64,000 nucleotides of DNA, from NCBI GenBank assembly GCA_022710975.1, contig JAKLGA010000001.1, positions 496,001-560,000 of the forward strand. The letters are read 5' to 3'. A model generated the notes under the pieces. That model did not search any database. It was not told the origin of the DNA and was given only the letters and a program-made list of their open reading frames with translations. This document shows, piece by piece, positions 57,695-63,416 of this stretch. The translations under genes and the position numbers were made by a program. The stretch's first letter is position 1, and the number at the start of each line of letters is the position of its first letter. Origin of the DNA: Myxococcota bacterium. GTDB lineage: Bacteria > Myxococcota > B64-G9.

Positions 57695-58648
57695 TCAGTC
57701 CGGGGCGGCGGGCTCCGGGGTCGGGGGGGGACCTGAGTCCGGGAGGGGCCTCTCCGCCTGCTCCGGGGGAGGGGCGGACGGAGGACCGCAGCAGGCCTGG
57801 ATGGCGGCGAGCGCCGCCTGGTGCTCCTCCGCGGAGGCGAAGCCGGCCGCCTCCAGGCGCGCGAGCACGACCTCGGACCGGCGCACCAGCTCGGCCGAGC
57901 GCCGCACCGGGCTCAGGCGGAGCGGGCGGGGGATGACGGCGGCCAGGCGGGCCATCTCGTCCAGGCCGAGCGCGGCCGGCGCCTTGCCGAAGTAGGCGCG
58001 GCTGGCCGGGCCCACGCCGTAGATGCCGGGGCCCCACTCGATGCAGTTCAGGTACAGCTCCAGGATGCGCGCCTTGGGCAGCTCCTCCTCGAGCCGGTCG
58101 ACCAGGTACCACTCCTCGAGCTTGCGCAGGTAGCTGCGCCTGGGCGACAGGTACAGGTTCTTGACGAGCTGCTGGCTGATGGTGCTCGCCCCGCGCACCA
58201 CCCGCCCCTCGCGCAGGTTGGTGCGGGCGGCCGCCTCCACCTCGTGCCAGTCCACCCCGTCGTGCTGCCAGAAGGCGGCGTCCTCGGCCAGCACCACCGC
58301 CCGCTGCAGCAGGCGCGGGATGCGGCCGAGCGGCACCCAGGCGCGGGTCAGCGGCGGGAAGCCCTTCGGCAGCTTGCCCTGCTCCCGCCTGAGCTCGATC
58401 AGCGCCGTGGTCTCCGGGTTGTGATCGCGCAGCCGCCCCACGTCCGGCTGGCTCAGGCCGCACCAGGCCAGCAGCGCCCCCAGGAGCAGCACCAGGCCGA
58501 GGGGCAGCCGGGCGCGGCGGACGCCCCGCCACAGACGCTGGAGCGCGGGCCGCCGGGGCGGGCCGGGCATGGGCGCGGGTCCGGCCGGCGGGCCAGAGGG
58601 CGCCGCGTCTGGAGGCGCGGCGTCAGGGGGCGTTGCCTGGGGGCTCAC
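57695..58648 (-). CDS. mtgA: Monofunctional peptidoglycan glycosyltransferase (MtgA-like)
   Basis: 317 residues from a GTG at 58648 that overlaps the upstream stop by 4 bp; an ATG at 58570 is an alternative. A membrane helix (about 48-66 from the GTG) is followed by the GT51 domain: AEDAAFWQHDGVD (catalytic Glu), GASTISQQLVKNLYLSP, RKLEEWYLV and ILELYLNCIEWG (second Glu), then YFGKAPAALGLDEMA. No transpeptidase domain is present, so it polymerises glycan strands from lipid II without cross-linking. The Pro-rich ends before and after the domain are unusual but occur in GC-rich deltaproteobacteria. Confidence 0.9.
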   Translation of the reverse strand: MSPQATPPDAAPPDAAPSGPPAGPAPMPGPPRRPALQRLWRGVRRARLPLGLVLLLGALLAWCGLSQPDVGRLRDHNPETTALIELRREQGKLPKGFPPLTRAWVPLGRIPRLLQRAVVLAEDAAFWQHDGVDWHEVEAAARTNLREGRVVRGASTISQQLVKNLYLSPRRSYLRKLEEWYLVDRLEEELPKARILELYLNCIEWGPGIYGVGPASRAYFGKAPAALGLDEMARLAAVIPRPLRLSPVRRSAELVRRSEVVLARLEAAGFASAEEHQAALAAIQACCGPPSAPPPEQAERPLPDSGPPPTPEPAAPD

Positions 58649-59664
58649 GGCGGGGTCTCGGAGTAGCTCGTCACCGCCCGCTCGGCCAGGGGCTGGTCGG
58701 GGTCCAGGGCTGCGTCGAGCAGATCGACGTGGGTGGGCGGACCGTTCTGGCTGCCCTGCACGACGAGCTGCCAGTGGATGCCGTGGACCTCCCCGAGCGG
58801 CGGCTCGAGCACCACCAGGAAGCGCTCTCCCAGGTTGTGCAGATCGGCGCCGTAGGCCAGCCGGAAGGGGCCTTCCACCTCCTGGGCCTGCCCGCCGAGG
58901 GTCACCCGGGCCCAGGTGAGCCCGGCCGCGCCCGTGCCCATGCTGGGCGGCAGGTAGCGCCGGGTGGCCTCGACGGTGTCGCCGCCCTCCAGGCCGAGGA
59001 CCTGGGCGTAGGCGCCGGCCTGGCCCAGGCTGCACGAGGTGAGCGACTGCTGCTCGGTCCGGTAGTCGCTGCCCGAGTCGAGCCGCAGCTCGAGCTCCAC
59101 CTGGCGCCCGTCCTCGTCCAGCCCCTGCAGGGGCTCGCCGACCTGATCGGCCTCGAAGCGCAGCTCGGCCGGATCCGCGACCCCCTCCCGGGTGCAGAAC
59201 GTCATTCGCAGGCTCAGGCTGGCCTGGTGCGTGCCGGCCTGGAGCTCGAAGGCCTGCTGGGCCTCGAACCGGTCGCAGAAGCCGCCCAGGAAGGTCTCCC
59301 GCCGGTGGCTGAGCGCGGCCGCCGAGGTGGCGGTCGCCGGGGCGGGGCTGGGGCCGCCGATCTCCAGGCCGGTGAACAGCGCGGGCTCGGCCTGCAGGCC
59401 CGGGCGGAGCTCAAGGGTCTGGGCCGGGAACTGCACCCGGGCGCGCAGCGCCAGCTCCTCGGCGGCCGTGCGCTGCCTCATGAACCCGGCGCAGGCCTGG
59501 GCGCCGGGCTCGAACACCGCGCGGTAGGTGGGCCCGGCGCCGTCGTCCGATCCGTCGGACCCGTCGGATCCGTCGGATCCGTCGGATTCCCCATCCTGGT
59601 CCCCTGCGCAGCCCGACCCGGCCAGGCACAGGAGCGCAGCGAGTCCCCAGATCCACGCCTTCAT
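58645..59664 (-). CDS. Lipoprotein with Gly-Ser-Asp repeat linker
   Basis: 339 residues; lipobox AGSGC (Cys19). Right behind it is a (Gly-Ser-Asp)n linker coded by 9-bp tandem repeats, then a beta-rich body of about 290 residues with three Cys. I do not recognise the fold. Translation of the glycosyltransferase gene is coupled to its stop (GTGA), so it could be an activator or tether of that enzyme, as LpoA/LpoB are for penicillin-binding proteins; this is inference from position. GGAGG lies 7 nt before the ATG. Confidence 0.72.
   Translation of the reverse strand: MKAWIWGLAALLCLAGSGCAGDQDGESDGSDGSDGSDGSDDGAGPTYRAVFEPGAQACAGFMRQRTAAEELALRARVQFPAQTLELRPGLQAEPALFTGLEIGGPSPAPATATSAAALSHRRETFLGGFCDRFEAQQAFELQAGTHQASLSLRMTFCTREGVADPAELRFEADQVGEPLQGLDEDGRQVELELRLDSGSDYRTEQQSLTSCSLGQAGAYAQVLGLEGGDTVEATRRYLPPSMGTGAAGLTWARVTLGGQAQEVEGPFRLAYGADLHNLGERFLVVLEPPLGEVHGIHWQLVVQGSQNGPPTHVDLLDAALDPDQPLAERAVTSYSETPP
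59552..59587 (-). repeat. 9-bp tandem repeats in the lipoprotein linker
   Basis: Four CCGTCGGAC/T units on the plus strand (59552-59587), encoding the Ser-Asp-Gly linker just after the lipid-anchoring Cys. Copy number may vary, changing tether length without a frameshift. Confidence 0.7.
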
Positions 59665-59717: not shown

Positions 59718-59748
59718 TTGACTCGGCCGGGCTTTCGGAGAGGATAGG
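59718..59748 (+). promoter_or_regulatory. Possible promoter of the two-zinc-ribbon gene
   Basis: TTGACT (59718-59723) followed by GATAGG (59743-59748) with a 19-bp spacer; the ATG at 59769 is preceded by GGGAGG. Spacing is long, so confidence is limited. Confidence 0.35.
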
Positions 59749-59768
59749 TGCAACCCGGGAGGTCGCCG

Positions 59769-60104
59769 ATGAAGTGCCCGAAGTGCGGGGACGTGGAGAT
59801 GGTCAAGGAGCAGGTCCAGGACCTCGAGCTGGACCGCTGCCCGACCTGCCGGGGGATCTTCTTCGACCCGGGCGAGCTCCAGACCGTGCTCCAGCGCAGG
59901 CTGGTGGACCAGGTCGAGGGGCTGCCCGAGATCCTGGTGCAGACCGGCCAGCGCGACGGCAACCCCGCCCACTGCTACCTGTGCGGGCTGTCGATGGTGG
60001 CCAAGAAGGCCCCGGGCGAGGTGCGCGTGGACTGGTGCCCGGGCTGCAAGGGCGTGTTCCTCGACAGCGGCGAGCTGACGGTCATCGAGGCCCTGCGGCC
60101 CTGA
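59769..60104 (+). CDS. Small protein with two TFIIB-type zinc ribbons
   Basis: 111 residues. Two equal halves: CPKCG then CPTCRGIFFDPGEL (about residues 3-36), and CYLCG then CPGCKGVFLDSGEL (about 66-100). Each half is a zf-TFIIB-like ribbon with four Cys for one zinc. No DNA-binding extension is seen, and such short proteins are common in Proteobacteria without assigned function. GGGAGG is located 6 nt before the ATG. It converges with the CarD-like fusion gene, 7 bp apart. Confidence 0.8.
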   Translation: MKCPKCGDVEMVKEQVQDLELDRCPTCRGIFFDPGELQTVLQRRLVDQVEGLPEILVQTGQRDGNPAHCYLCGLSMVAKKAPGEVRVDWCPGCKGVFLDSGELTVIEALRP

Positions 60105-60111
60105 GGCCGGG

Positions 60112-61833
60112 CTACTCCGCGATCTTCGGCCCCAGCGCGATCCCGCCGTCCGCCTCGCCCAGCGCGAAGCGCCCCAGGAACGACAGCCCCAGCACCCCGT
60201 CGAGCGGCGTCCCGGCCTCGTCCTGCCAGCCCGCGAGCTCCGCGACCAGGGCCTCGACCCTGCCCGCCCGGGCGCCGTCGAGCTCCACCTGGGGCAGCAC
60301 GGCCAGCCAGCCCGTGCGCACCTCCCGCCCGTCCCACAGGAGCAGGTCGGGCTGGCCGGCGGGGCGGTCCAGGCCCAGCCGGCTGGCCAGCGCCGGGCTG
60401 ACCAGCGACAGGCCGAGCTGGAGGTCGAGCAGCACGCGCGCCCGCCGCCCGTCGCCCAGGCCGACCTCCACCGGCGGCAGCGCGCCGTCCTCCTGCGCCT
60501 CCACGAAGGCGTGCCCGCTGCCGGCCATGCCCTGGCAGTCCGGGGCGCGGTAGAGCCCCTCGAGGGCGGACAGCAGCTCCTCGTCCTCGGCCGCCTCCGG
60601 GTGGTGGAAGGCCACCTGCTCGAGCGCGAAGATGCCCTCGCACTCCCGGCCGGCCTCGCGGGCCGCGCGGGCCATGGAGAAGGGGATGGTGCGCAGGCGG
60701 GGCTGCAGGGCCAGCGCCTGGCGGTAGTCCTCCAGCGCCCGGGGCCAGTCGCGCAGCCGCTCGTGCACCTCCGCGCGCCACCAGCGGAAGTCCTTGTCGC
60801 GCGGGTAGCGCTCGATGAGCTGGCCCACGTCGGCCAGGGCCTCGGGGTACTCGCCCTGGCGCTTGTGGGCCTCGTGGGTCACCCACAGCAGGCGGTCGAA
60901 CGGGCCGCACTCGGCCAGGAAGCGGCGGGCGCGGGCCACCAGGCGCGGGTGGTCCCCGAGCTCGAGGAGCTGCTCGGCGAAGTGGAGCATCTTGACCCGG
61001 TCGCAGGGCTCCTGCTCGAGGCGCTGGGCCGCCCGTTTCACCTCGAGCTCGTGCTTGCCGTAGTCGAAGGGCTCCTCGTAGGTGGCGACCAGCCAGGCGG
61101 TCAAGCCGCCCAGGAGGCCCGCCAGCCCCAGCGCCAGGCTCAGCGCGAGTGCCCGGCGTGCGCGCCGGCGGGCGCGGGCGCAGGCCGGGCACAGGAAGCG
61201 TGCGCCGTCGGCCGTGGCGCACAGCTCGCACATCGGCCGGAGGCACTCCGCGCAGGAGTCCGTGGCGGCCTTGCGCGGGTGCTGGTGGCAGGGCACGGCC
61301 GGGGCCGGGCCGTCCGGCTCCGGCGGGGCGGCGGGCGCCGGGGGGTGCCACACGGCCTCGAGCTCGGCCCGGAGCGTGGCGGGCGGGAACCCGAGCGCCA
61401 GGCCGAGCTCGGCCAGCACCTGGGCCTCGAGCTCCTCCCGGAACCGCAGCTCGCCCGGGCTGGGGTCGGGCAGCGCGTGCAGCAGGCGCACCAGGCGGGC
61501 CAGGCCGCCGAGCTGCCCCGCGGCCGCGGTGGCCAGGCGCGCGTCGGGCGAGGTCTCCTCGGGGCGGGCGTCGGCGGGCGGCCGGGGGGCCCGCAGCAGC
61601 GCCAGGGCCGCCTCGGCCTCCGGCCGCGGCGACGGGGGGCGCAGCTTCAGCACCGCGTCCTCCAGCCCGATCTCGAGCCGCAGGCCGCTGGCGAAGGCGA
61701 GCACCAGCAGGGGTTCCGGGGCGCCGTCCGCGCCGGGCGCCTCGGCCACCCCCCGCACCTCGGCCAGGCCGTGGGGCGGCATGACGACCCGGTCGCCCAC
61801 CCGCAGCCTGAGGATGCCGAGGATGTCCTCCAT
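60112..61833 (-). CDS. Fusion protein: CarD-like, B-box zinc, membrane helix, TPR, retropepsin fold
   Basis: 573 residues. Residues about 1-60 resemble the RNA-polymerase-binding domain of CarD/CdnL (VGDRVVMPPHGLAEVRGV). Residues about 175-215 form a B-box-like zinc motif (CHQHPRKAATDSC, CLRPMCELC, CPAC). A membrane helix lies near 228-250. TPR-like helices occupy about 265-430. The last 125 residues follow the bacterial retropepsin pattern (VEVGLGDGRRARVLLD, then DGVLGLSFLGRF). The active-site DTG is replaced by DLQ, so proteolysis is doubtful. Start at 61833 follows GTGAGG; an ATG at 61845 would add four residues. Confidence 0.78.
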   Translation of the reverse strand: MEDILGILRLRVGDRVVMPPHGLAEVRGVAEAPGADGAPEPLLVLAFASGLRLEIGLEDAVLKLRPPSPRPEAEAALALLRAPRPPADARPEETSPDARLATAAAGQLGGLARLVRLLHALPDPSPGELRFREELEAQVLAELGLALGFPPATLRAELEAVWHPPAPAAPPEPDGPAPAVPCHQHPRKAATDSCAECLRPMCELCATADGARFLCPACARARRRARRALALSLALGLAGLLGGLTAWLVATYEEPFDYGKHELEVKRAAQRLEQEPCDRVKMLHFAEQLLELGDHPRLVARARRFLAECGPFDRLLWVTHEAHKRQGEYPEALADVGQLIERYPRDKDFRWWRAEVHERLRDWPRALEDYRQALALQPRLRTIPFSMARAAREAGRECEGIFALEQVAFHHPEAAEDEELLSALEGLYRAPDCQGMAGSGHAFVEAQEDGALPPVEVGLGDGRRARVLLDLQLGLSLVSPALASRLGLDRPAGQPDLLLWDGREVRTGWLAVLPQVELDGARAGRVEALVAELAGWQDEAGTPLDGVLGLSFLGRFALGEADGGIALGPKIAE

Positions 61834-61962: not shown

Positions 61963-62310
61963 ATGCGCAAGAAGACGGAGAACCGCGTGACTGTCCGGCG
62001 CCGGGTGCGGCGCCCCACGGCCCGGGCCGTGGATCTGACGCGCCTGTGCTGCCGCGCCGCGCCCGAGATGGGTCGGCGCCAGGCCAAGACCATCGAGGCC
62101 GCCATCCTCAGCACCCTGCCGCGGAGCCGGCCCGGGATGCTGTTCGACGAGCTGGTCGATCGGCTGGCCATGCACTTGAACCCCGTGGCGTTTCCCCTGC
62201 GGCGCACCGTGAGCCGCTACGCCAAGGCCGTGCAGCTCGATCTCGAGGAGCGCGGCCTGATCGAGCGCGTGCCCGGCAGCTCGCCCATCCGCCTCCGCCG
62301 CGTCCGCTGA
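61963..62310 (+). CDS. Small basic winged-helix-like protein
   Basis: 115 residues. A strongly basic N-terminal 25 residues (RRRVRRPTAR) and a C-terminal helical part ending in a possible wing: FDELVDRLAMHL, then LDLEERGLIERVPG and a last IRLRRVR strand. This layout suits a DNA-binding winged helix, but no family is recognised. GGAGG lies 7 nt before the ATG. Its last 94 bp overlap the 3' end of the NlpC/P60-like gene on the other strand. Confidence 0.65.
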   Translation: MRKKTENRVTVRRRVRRPTARAVDLTRLCCRAAPEMGRRQAKTIEAAILSTLPRSRPGMLFDELVDRLAMHLNPVAFPLRRTVSRYAKAVQLDLEERGLIERVPGSSPIRLRRVR

Positions 62311-63416
62311 GCCCCGCGCCTCCAGCGCAGCACCCGCACCCGGCTCTGGGTGTAGGCCGTGTCCCGGATGGGCTGCTCGCAGGGCGGCGCCCAGTAGGTG
62401 TGGATGAGCACGTCGTTCAGGTCGAGCACCCCCAGCGGCGCCCGGTCCTCGCGGAGCGCCCCCACGTGTCCGGGGAAGAGCAGCAGATCCCCGGGCTGGA
62501 TCTCGCCGGCCCCCGCGCCGATGCGCACGGGCTGCCCGCGCTCGGTCACGAAGCGCCCGTCCGCGTCCACCCGCGCGGCGCGGGCCACGGTGGAGGCCAC
62601 CTCCGGCAGGTGCCAGGTGGCCCGGTAGGGCAGCTCCTTGCCCAGGCGGCGCGCCCCGTACACGATGAAGTCCGCGCAGTCCGAGCCGATCAGCCGCTCG
62701 GCCTGGTGCTCGGCGGGCGGCTCCCCGGCCGAGCCCCAGATGTAGGGGGTGTTGAACAGCTCGGTGAGCCGGCCCAGGTAGCTGTCGTCGCGCCGCAGCG
62801 CCACGCGGGTGACCTGGCTCGACAGCCCGCCGCGGTGGAGGCTCCCGGCCCCGGGCGAGGCGAGCGGCGCCGCCCCCTCGCGGGCCAGCTCCACCTGGAA
62901 GGCCATGGTGCCGAGCCCGCCCTGCGCGTCCGCGTAGGGCGGCAGCGGGCGGGCGTCGGCCGGCCGGGACCAGGGCGCGCCGGGCGCGTCCGGGGCGGCC
63001 CAGGGGAAGGTGCGGTACTCGATCGCGTCCCAGTGGAAGCCGCCTCGGGTGTTGTTGTAGCTGTCGCCGACCGGCTGCACCTTGGACCAGGCGAGCGTCC
63101 AGCCCGCGGCCGCGGGCAGGGTGGCGGGTCTGCGCAGCCGCGCCGCGGGCACCCGCCCGTCCGGGAGCTCGACCGCCTCGGCCTCGCTCACCACCACGGG
63201 CCTGCCGTCCAGGCGGGCCTCGACCGCGGCGAACAGGGTGACGCCCTGGTCGAGCCGGGCGCGCGCGATGCCCACCCGGGCCACGCTCTCCCCCGGCCCC
63301 TGGGCCAGCACCCACACCCGCTCCGGGACGAGCTCCTGCCCGCGCGCCCCCGGCGCGGCGAGCAGCGCGAGCGAGCACGACAGCAGCACCCAGGTGCAGG
63401 GCTTCGAGCGCGTCAT
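62217..63416 (-). CDS. Secreted NlpC/P60-like cysteine peptidase
   Basis: 399 residues with a signal peptide (about 1-25, cleavage after ARG or similar). The C-terminal domain (about 215-350) has NTPYIWGS, GSDCADFIVYGARRLG with the catalytic Cys, and GDLLLFPGHVGAL with the His, which is the NlpC/P60 pattern of cell-wall amidases. The N-terminal 200 residues are beta-rich with TFPWAAPDAPG and no assigned domain. The final 31 residues after VRVLRW are Arg/Ser-rich and lie antisense to the neighbouring gene, so they are probably a non-functional extension. A TAGGCT hexamer ends 6 nt before the ATG. The -35 is weak. Confidence 0.8.
   Translation of the reverse strand: MTRSKPCTWVLLSCSLALLAAPGARGQELVPERVWVLAQGPGESVARVGIARARLDQGVTLFAAVEARLDGRPVVVSEAEAVELPDGRVPAARLRRPATLPAAAGWTLAWSKVQPVGDSYNNTRGGFHWDAIEYRTFPWAAPDAPGAPWSRPADARPLPPYADAQGGLGTMAFQVELAREGAAPLASPGAGSLHRGGLSSQVTRVALRRDDSYLGRLTELFNTPYIWGSAGEPPAEHQAERLIGSDCADFIVYGARRLGKELPYRATWHLPEVASTVARAARVDADGRFVTERGQPVRIGAGAGEIQPGDLLLFPGHVGALREDRAPLGVLDLNDVLIHTYWAPPCEQPIRDTAYTQSRVRVLRWRRGAQRTRRRRMGELPGTRSIRPRSSRSSCTALA

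Follow-up and report, generated by a model that had tools for sequence, protein, structure and literature searches.

The gene studied here lies on the minus strand of a 64,000-nucleotide stretch of DNA from a Myxococcota bacterium, the whole of which we refer to as the window. The surrounding genome comprises 7.13 Mb in 29 contigs, and the window falls inside a contig of 920 kb. The gene encodes an unusual chain of five parts, which the initial annotation of the window had described at its correct coordinates and without a strand. The chain is real: it is 573 amino acids long, and orthologues are present in two further genera of its family, represented by the genomes G007 and G006. The features of the locus, with the evidence for each, are as follows.

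60112..61833, minus strand: whole fusion gene, 573 aa (open reading frame, third-position GC of 0.99, full-length orthologues in G007 and G006)
61633..61809, minus strand: CarD-like RID, residues 9-67 (profile and HMM matches, alignment)
61348..61632, minus strand: CarD/CdnL C-terminal helical domain (CTD), residues 68-162 (profile match; CarD_C in 2/3 members)
61180..61290, minus strand: B-box-like zinc motif, C182, H185, C194, C197, C202, C205, C215 and C218 (ligands conserved among homologues with this part)
61096..61152, minus strand: single transmembrane (TM) helix, residues 228-246, N-terminus predicted inside (hydropathy and charge count)
60520..61068, minus strand: TPR helices, residues 256-438, predicted extracytoplasmic (TPR_16 above cut-off; model mostly confident)
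60121..60519, minus strand: degenerate retropepsin-like domain, residues 439-571 (Asp_protease_2 score; profile match to ApRick, 5c9b)
60418..60426, minus strand: D470-L471-Q472 at the place of the catalytic DTG (alignments)
61963..62310, plus strand: divergently transcribed DUF6958 gene, 115 aa (Pfam DUF6958, 60.4 bits; adjoins the fusion in all three genomes)
62217..63416, minus strand: exported protein, presumably of NlpC/P60 type from a sequence motif, conserved neighbour (synteny; no Pfam match)
58645..59664, minus strand: lipoprotein-like gene, conserved neighbour (synteny; multi-copy family)

The ATG at 61833 gives the 573 codons listed above, and an alternative in-frame ATG four codons upstream (61845) is possible. 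A few shorter overlapping frames on the plus strand also reach a third-position GC content of 0.98-0.99. Since this property is shared between the strands, we identify the fusion frame as the coding frame because full-length homologues of it exist.

A CdnL-like module at the N-terminus

CarD and CdnL are global, often essential promoter factors that act on RNA polymerase (RNAP). The initial annotation had assigned a CarD-like domain to the first 60 residues of the chain. In single-sequence scans the window protein scores 17.5, 19.9 and 22.1 bits for the Pfam RID family (PF02559), below the cut-off of 23. The window N-terminus alone nevertheless finds the one ordinary CdnL of its own genome, from residue 8 to 166 (E 4.9e-4), and the likeness becomes secure once a profile of the three fusion N-termini is used. 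This profile matches CarD/CdnL structures in the PDB, including M. tuberculosis CarD and a CdnL-type chain (2lwj), with E 1.7e-7 to 1.5e-6 over profile positions 8-146, and it aligns with the phylum's CdnL proteins over 160 columns with an hhalign probability of 97.8. The C-terminal domain, CarD_C (PF21095), is matched in two of the three fusion members. Thus, the assignment to CarD holds for the N-terminus and the proposed extent does not: judged by its profile matches, the CarD part is a whole two-domain CdnL-like module of about 160 residues, with the RID and the helical C-terminal domain in their usual order.

An AlphaFold2 model of window residues 1-171, built from the single sequence, has a mean pLDDT of 50.3 and shows helices in the CTD region. 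Foldseek, run with this low-confidence model, placed CarD chains at ranks 1-4 but with E-values of 0.44-1.6 and TM-scores of 0.22-0.28, and we discount this result as evidence. A fourth match to PF02559 in the same genome (C8:121224, 17.2 bits) was also set aside, the locus showing no CarD likeness when scanned with the fusion's N-terminus.

Between G007 and G006, identity is 57% in the RID and 52% in the CTD, compared with 18% in the linker; the zinc part (76%) and the TPR part (70%) are more alike, the protease part (49%) and the TM stretch (32%) less so. Because the RID and CTD are conserved in this way and the linker is not, we conclude that the fused CarD module is still under selection.

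Residues that contact polymerase and promoter

We number contact residues according to M. xanthus CdnL, taking Y34, R47 and P49 of M. tuberculosis CarD to be the equivalents of its F36, M49 and P51. According to PMC4182748, these three residues are needed for binding to RNAP-beta, and R90, R91 and R93 are needed for function; the contacts between CdnL and RNAP are described there as partly species-specific. The tryptophan W88, which over 95% of CarD proteins share, acts as a wedge at the promoter in M. tuberculosis and Thermus (PMC4182748, PMC4593161), and its replacement by alanine is tolerated in M. xanthus CdnL (PMC4182748). In M. xanthus CarD, according to PMC4374960, the C-terminal module binds CarG, and mutations of RNAP contacts bring no drastic drop in activity.

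The initial annotation had raised the question of whether the N-terminal domain conserves these contact residues. We read the positions from an alignment of 26 CarD-type domains (12 CdnL, 5 CarD, the 3 fusions, and others), whose register is the same in a HMMER alignment to M. tuberculosis CarD. The window protein has P41, E54 and G56 at the positions of F36, M49 and P51, E92 at the position of the tryptophan, and T94, S95 and D97 at those of R90, R91 and R93. Across the three fusions, the residues are, in the order window, G007, G006:

Position 36 (RNAP-beta): P, gap, A
Position 49 (RNAP-beta): E, E, D
Position 51 (RNAP-beta): G, T, S
Position 88 (minor-groove W): E, F, F
Position 90 (basic patch, R): T, D, E
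Position 91 (basic patch, R): S, R, G
Position 93 (basic patch, R): D, E, K

The equivalent of P51 and the tryptophan are each present in 12/12 CdnL and 5/5 CarD proteins and in 0/3 fusions. R90 and R93 are likewise found in all 12 CdnL proteins versus none of the fusions, and R91, present in every CdnL, occurs among the fusions in G007 only, which is the sole exception to replacement in 3/3 fusions among the positions tested. The net charge of the CTD is +7 in the genome's own CdnL, as opposed to -4, -2 and -1 in the fusions. With the exception of R91 in G007, the consensus contact residues have been lost; given that the contacts are in part species-specific, this does not in itself prove a loss of RNAP binding.

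The zinc motif, TPR helices and retropepsin-like domain

From residue 181 onward the chain belongs to a wider family consisting of a zinc motif, one TM helix, TPR helices and a retropepsin-like domain. We aligned this region in 16 rows (alignment A5), the N-termini being of a different kind in L019 and L031. The B-box zinc motif of the initial annotation stands as a pattern of ligands, conserved in the homologues with that part, and falls short as a Pfam assignment: PF00643 scores 10.6 bits, below its cut-off of 24.1, and zf-B_box is matched in 4/16 rows of A5 at E 0.01. The other parts are borne out. There is one TM helix, at residues 228-246; TPR_16 scores 37.0 bits against a cut-off of 32.7, and the TPR region is modelled as helical hairpins at high pLDDT; and the retropepsin-like domain is recognised by Asp_protease_2 (PF13650) at 31.3 bits against a cut-off of 24.3. 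The latter family is found in all 16 rows of A5 at E 0.01, and the A5 profile matches the Rickettsia protein ApRick (5c9b) with E 5.6e-7. In a model of residues 252-573, made with one partial relative, the TPR part is mostly confident and the protease part lies below pLDDT 50, so that the case for the protease fold is made entirely by the profiles.

The motif D-T/S-G is a requirement of the retropepsin-like aspartic protease family. In the window protein residues 470-472 read DLQ, just as had been annotated; the corresponding triplet is QLG in G006 and, in G007, either SLD when ungapped or DT with the glycine deleted by the HMM. It had also been asked whether homologues keep DTG, and most do: 11 of the 14 CarD-free homologues with a protease part have the triplet intact (L004, L005, L006, L007, L008, L009, L010, L013, L014, L018 and L031), as against 0/3 fusions. 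The remaining three have DTD (L012), DGD (L017) and SGR (L019), and the whole protease domain is absent from three further homologues (L011, L015 and L016). The retropepsin part of the fusion is thus probably a dead protease.

In one member of the family, L019 (from G138), an RDD-type membrane domain stands at the N-terminus, ahead of the TPR-retropepsin core, and the triplet is SGR; RDD is matched by one A5 member, at 1.2e-11. Judged from its sequence, L019 is another case of N-terminal exchange with loss of the triplet.

Predicted orientation in the membrane

The charge on the N-terminal side of the TM helix is +6, +6 and +3 in the fusions, versus -2, -2 and -1 on the C-terminal side, and the homologues with the zinc-TM part carry +3 to +7 on the N-terminal side. 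Moreover, in at least nine loci (L020, L021, L023, L024, L026, L028, L029, L030 and L031, the last with DTG) the TPR part directly follows a lipoprotein-type signal, which replaces the zinc-TM part, the lipobox being judged by eye. Together, the charge bias and the lipoprotein homologues suggest that the CarD module and zinc motif lie inside, and the TPR helices and pseudo-protease outside.

Distribution of the fusion

Searching 146 genomes with the whole protein gave matches down to a limit of E 0.001 in 69 of them, many being generic TPR matches. Beyond the window, the only full-length matches in this set are those in G007 (50% identity, residues 9-572) and G006 (45%, residues 7-572). A match in G017 seemed to have an N-terminal extension (residue 90 on); we disregarded this stretch, as it stems from upstream of the probable start codon. 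When 195 genomes of the phylum were searched with the N-terminal profile, 116 had some CarD-type match; the fusions score 298, 281 and 239 bits, compared with 60 for the next protein. Proteins were inspected at 17 of these places and then at 13 further ones (18 loci, five of them repeats), and the rest were judged by frame length. Among the 195 genomes no further fusion came to light, and the count within this phylum is therefore 3/195.

The fusions form one clade with support of 100/100. The link between CarD gain and DTG loss therefore represents a single event (n = 1), and the loss of DTG is not specific to the fusion, because three homologues without CarD have lost it as well.

Conserved neighbours

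In each of the three fusion genomes the fusion lies back to back with the DUF6958 gene, and the exported protein and the lipoprotein-like gene are encoded nearby. Among the nine genomes of the class, DUF6958 occurs in 4 (the three fusion genomes and G004), the exported protein in 6 and the lipoprotein-like family in 6, the last often in several copies per genome. In G004 the DUF6958 gene, the exported protein and a nitroreductase stand together with no fusion seen beside them. The homologues in G004 and G005 sit elsewhere than at the fusion locus, and the association of this gene neighbourhood with a fusion is confined to the three genomes. The DUF6958 product gave us the impression of a winged helix, which a PDB sequence search did not support.

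Two further observations concern this region. The lipoprotein-like family of 58645-59664 has no Pfam match and up to nine matches per genome, with copies in G002, G005, G006 and G007. At 59748-60104 on the plus strand, convergent with the fusion, the window encodes a small protein that contains a pair of zinc ribbons of TFIIB type (PF13453, 85.8 bits) and was not found beside the fusion in G006 or G007.

Possible functions of the fusion protein

Catalytically dead protease folds often retain the ability to bind peptides. For this reason, and because the C-terminal module of M. xanthus CarD docks CarG (PMC4374960), we favour a reading to which we give about an even chance: that the fusion is a single-pass inner-membrane adaptor or receptor, derived from an extracytoplasmic protease-scaffold, whose co-opted CdnL-like module serves as a cytoplasmic protein-binding end. 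An ancestral membrane-anchored extracytoplasmic TPR-protease would have lost its catalytic triplet and gained the cytoplasmic module. Outside, the TPR scaffold and the retropepsin fold without its triplet would bind a ligand, proteolysis having presumably given way to peptide binding only. Inside, the zinc motif and a CdnL-like module without the residues for RNAP-beta or the promoter fork would hold another cytoplasmic protein and perhaps pass on a signal. On circumstantial grounds the DUF6958 product would be the strongest candidate for this partner, and the genome's own CdnL is another.

The initial annotation proposed that a membrane-tethered CarD-like domain could link envelope state with transcription, with the caveat that the CarD part might have been reused for another role. 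The loss of contact residues weakens the proposal and lends better support to the caveat. If the fusion is nonetheless a tethered regulator, its periplasmic part would sense the envelope, and its CarD part would act on RNAP at promoters by way of a shifted contact surface. The retention of the whole RID and CTD, the likely cytoplasmic placement of the CarD part, the variation of contacts between species (PMC4182748) and the DUF6958 gene that always adjoins the fusion are all consistent with such a role, the winged-helix look of the DUF6958 product having found no support. Against it stand the replacement in all three fusions of the three RNAP-beta contacts, the tryptophan and the essential basic positions, apart from R91 in G007, and a hairpin at the F36/Y34 position that is shorter in G007 and G006. 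We regard this role as rather unlikely; if the fusion does act on transcription, it would connect the envelope with the promoter machinery through a single protein.

It is also unlikely that the TPR part alone matters, the CarD and protease parts being relics on their way out that are kept as spacers. The TPR helices are indeed among the best conserved parts (61-70% identity among the fusions), they survive alone as lipoproteins in other members of the family, and L011, L015 and L016 do without the protease part. Against this, identity across genera is still 29-57% in the RID and CTD, unlike in the G007-G006 linker, and the CarD part contains the invariant stretch SPGE-RFR--LE-QVL-E.

A membrane decoy seems to us clearly improbable. 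Here the module would pair with the cell's own CdnL and hold it at the membrane, and the outside part would tune growth-linked transcription by sequestration. M. xanthus CdnL mutants without the beta contacts still self-interact (PMC4182748), so a contact-less copy could pair, and the genome does have one ordinary CdnL; but the fused module is closer to the DUF4241-linked CarD-like domains described below than to CdnL. A bolder version, in our view equally a long shot, is a dead-protease receptor. By pairing its contact-less CdnL copy with the ordinary CdnL of the cell, or else with another partner such as the DUF6958 protein, it would let envelope state set the free pool of a global initiation factor. 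If true, a CdnL-pairing receptor would amount to transmembrane signalling without a kinase, a sigma factor or an anti-sigma factor.

Finally, that the protein is a membrane-bound aspartic protease still active with DLQ, the CarD part being its cytoplasmic handle, is very improbable: the window protein does retain D470 in the Asp column and, close to its end, the LGLSFL stretch, but the family requires D-T/S-G, the motif of G006 (QLG) has no Asp, and that of G007 is out of register or without Gly.

Relation to known proteins

All parts of the fusion are of known kinds, and their combination appears to be new. Our literature searches found no membrane CarD fusion, nor any conserved membrane protein in which almost all of the CarD contacts examined here are missing. 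The CdnL/CarD proteins (M. tuberculosis CarD, M. xanthus CdnL; PF02559 and PF21095) have the same order of RID and helical C-terminal domain, whereas the fusion is joined to a membrane protein and is without the RNAP-beta contacts, the tryptophan wedge and the basic patch. The N-terminal domain of M. xanthus CarD, which acts with CarG, contains the same CdnL-type module, and its C-terminal half is the protein-protein interaction part (PMC4374960). Unlike the fusion, M. xanthus CarD has an HMGA tail, and CarD proteins keep the P51 equivalent and the tryptophan (5/5). The zinc-TM-TPR-retropepsin proteins of Myxococcota, such as L004 and L005, share the architecture from residue 181 (34% and 32% identity), but they are without a CarD part and mostly have DTG intact. 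Two retropepsin-like systems differ from the fusion by its degenerate triplet, TPR helices and cytoplasmic part: the Rickettsia protein ApRick, described as a protease and matched by the A5 profile, and the Rlo proteases of P. aeruginosa, which are secreted (PMC12239564).

Other divergent CarD-like domains

The closest profile to the fusions' CarD part comes from Myxococcota proteins in which a CarD-like RID and CTD are joined to DUF4241-like tails: L059, L060, L062 and L071, from G189, G023, G186 and G051 (hhalign 99.2 over 149 columns). The DUF4241 match itself is weak and is found among the four tails only in L059 (17.7 bits versus a cut-off of 27), and a literature search for DUF4241 found no relevant paper. 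These proteins and the fusions have in common a PDxR motif before the third helix; no TM, TPR or protease part was seen in the former. They have the P51 equivalent in 3/4 cases and the tryptophan in 2/4, and their basic positions are partly degenerate.

In a tree of CarD parts, the fusions and the DUF4241-tail proteins lie across a branch with support of 98/97 from CdnL and CarD. The program warned of long branches meeting, and we use the tree, with care, only for this one branch. It seems that the module departed from the canonical form either repeatedly or a single time, before the two groups arose. Either way, the two-domain CarD module persists without polymerase and DNA contacts in the fusions, and partly so in the DUF4241-linked proteins. 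A CarD-type annotation, then, need not mean binding to RNAP, and the module may be a unit for protein binding that lends itself to reuse.

In G128 (L087:1860-2906), too, a CarD-like N-terminus, here very divergent, precedes a DUF4253 domain that scores 44.5 bits against a cut-off of 27, which suggests yet another reuse of the CarD module.
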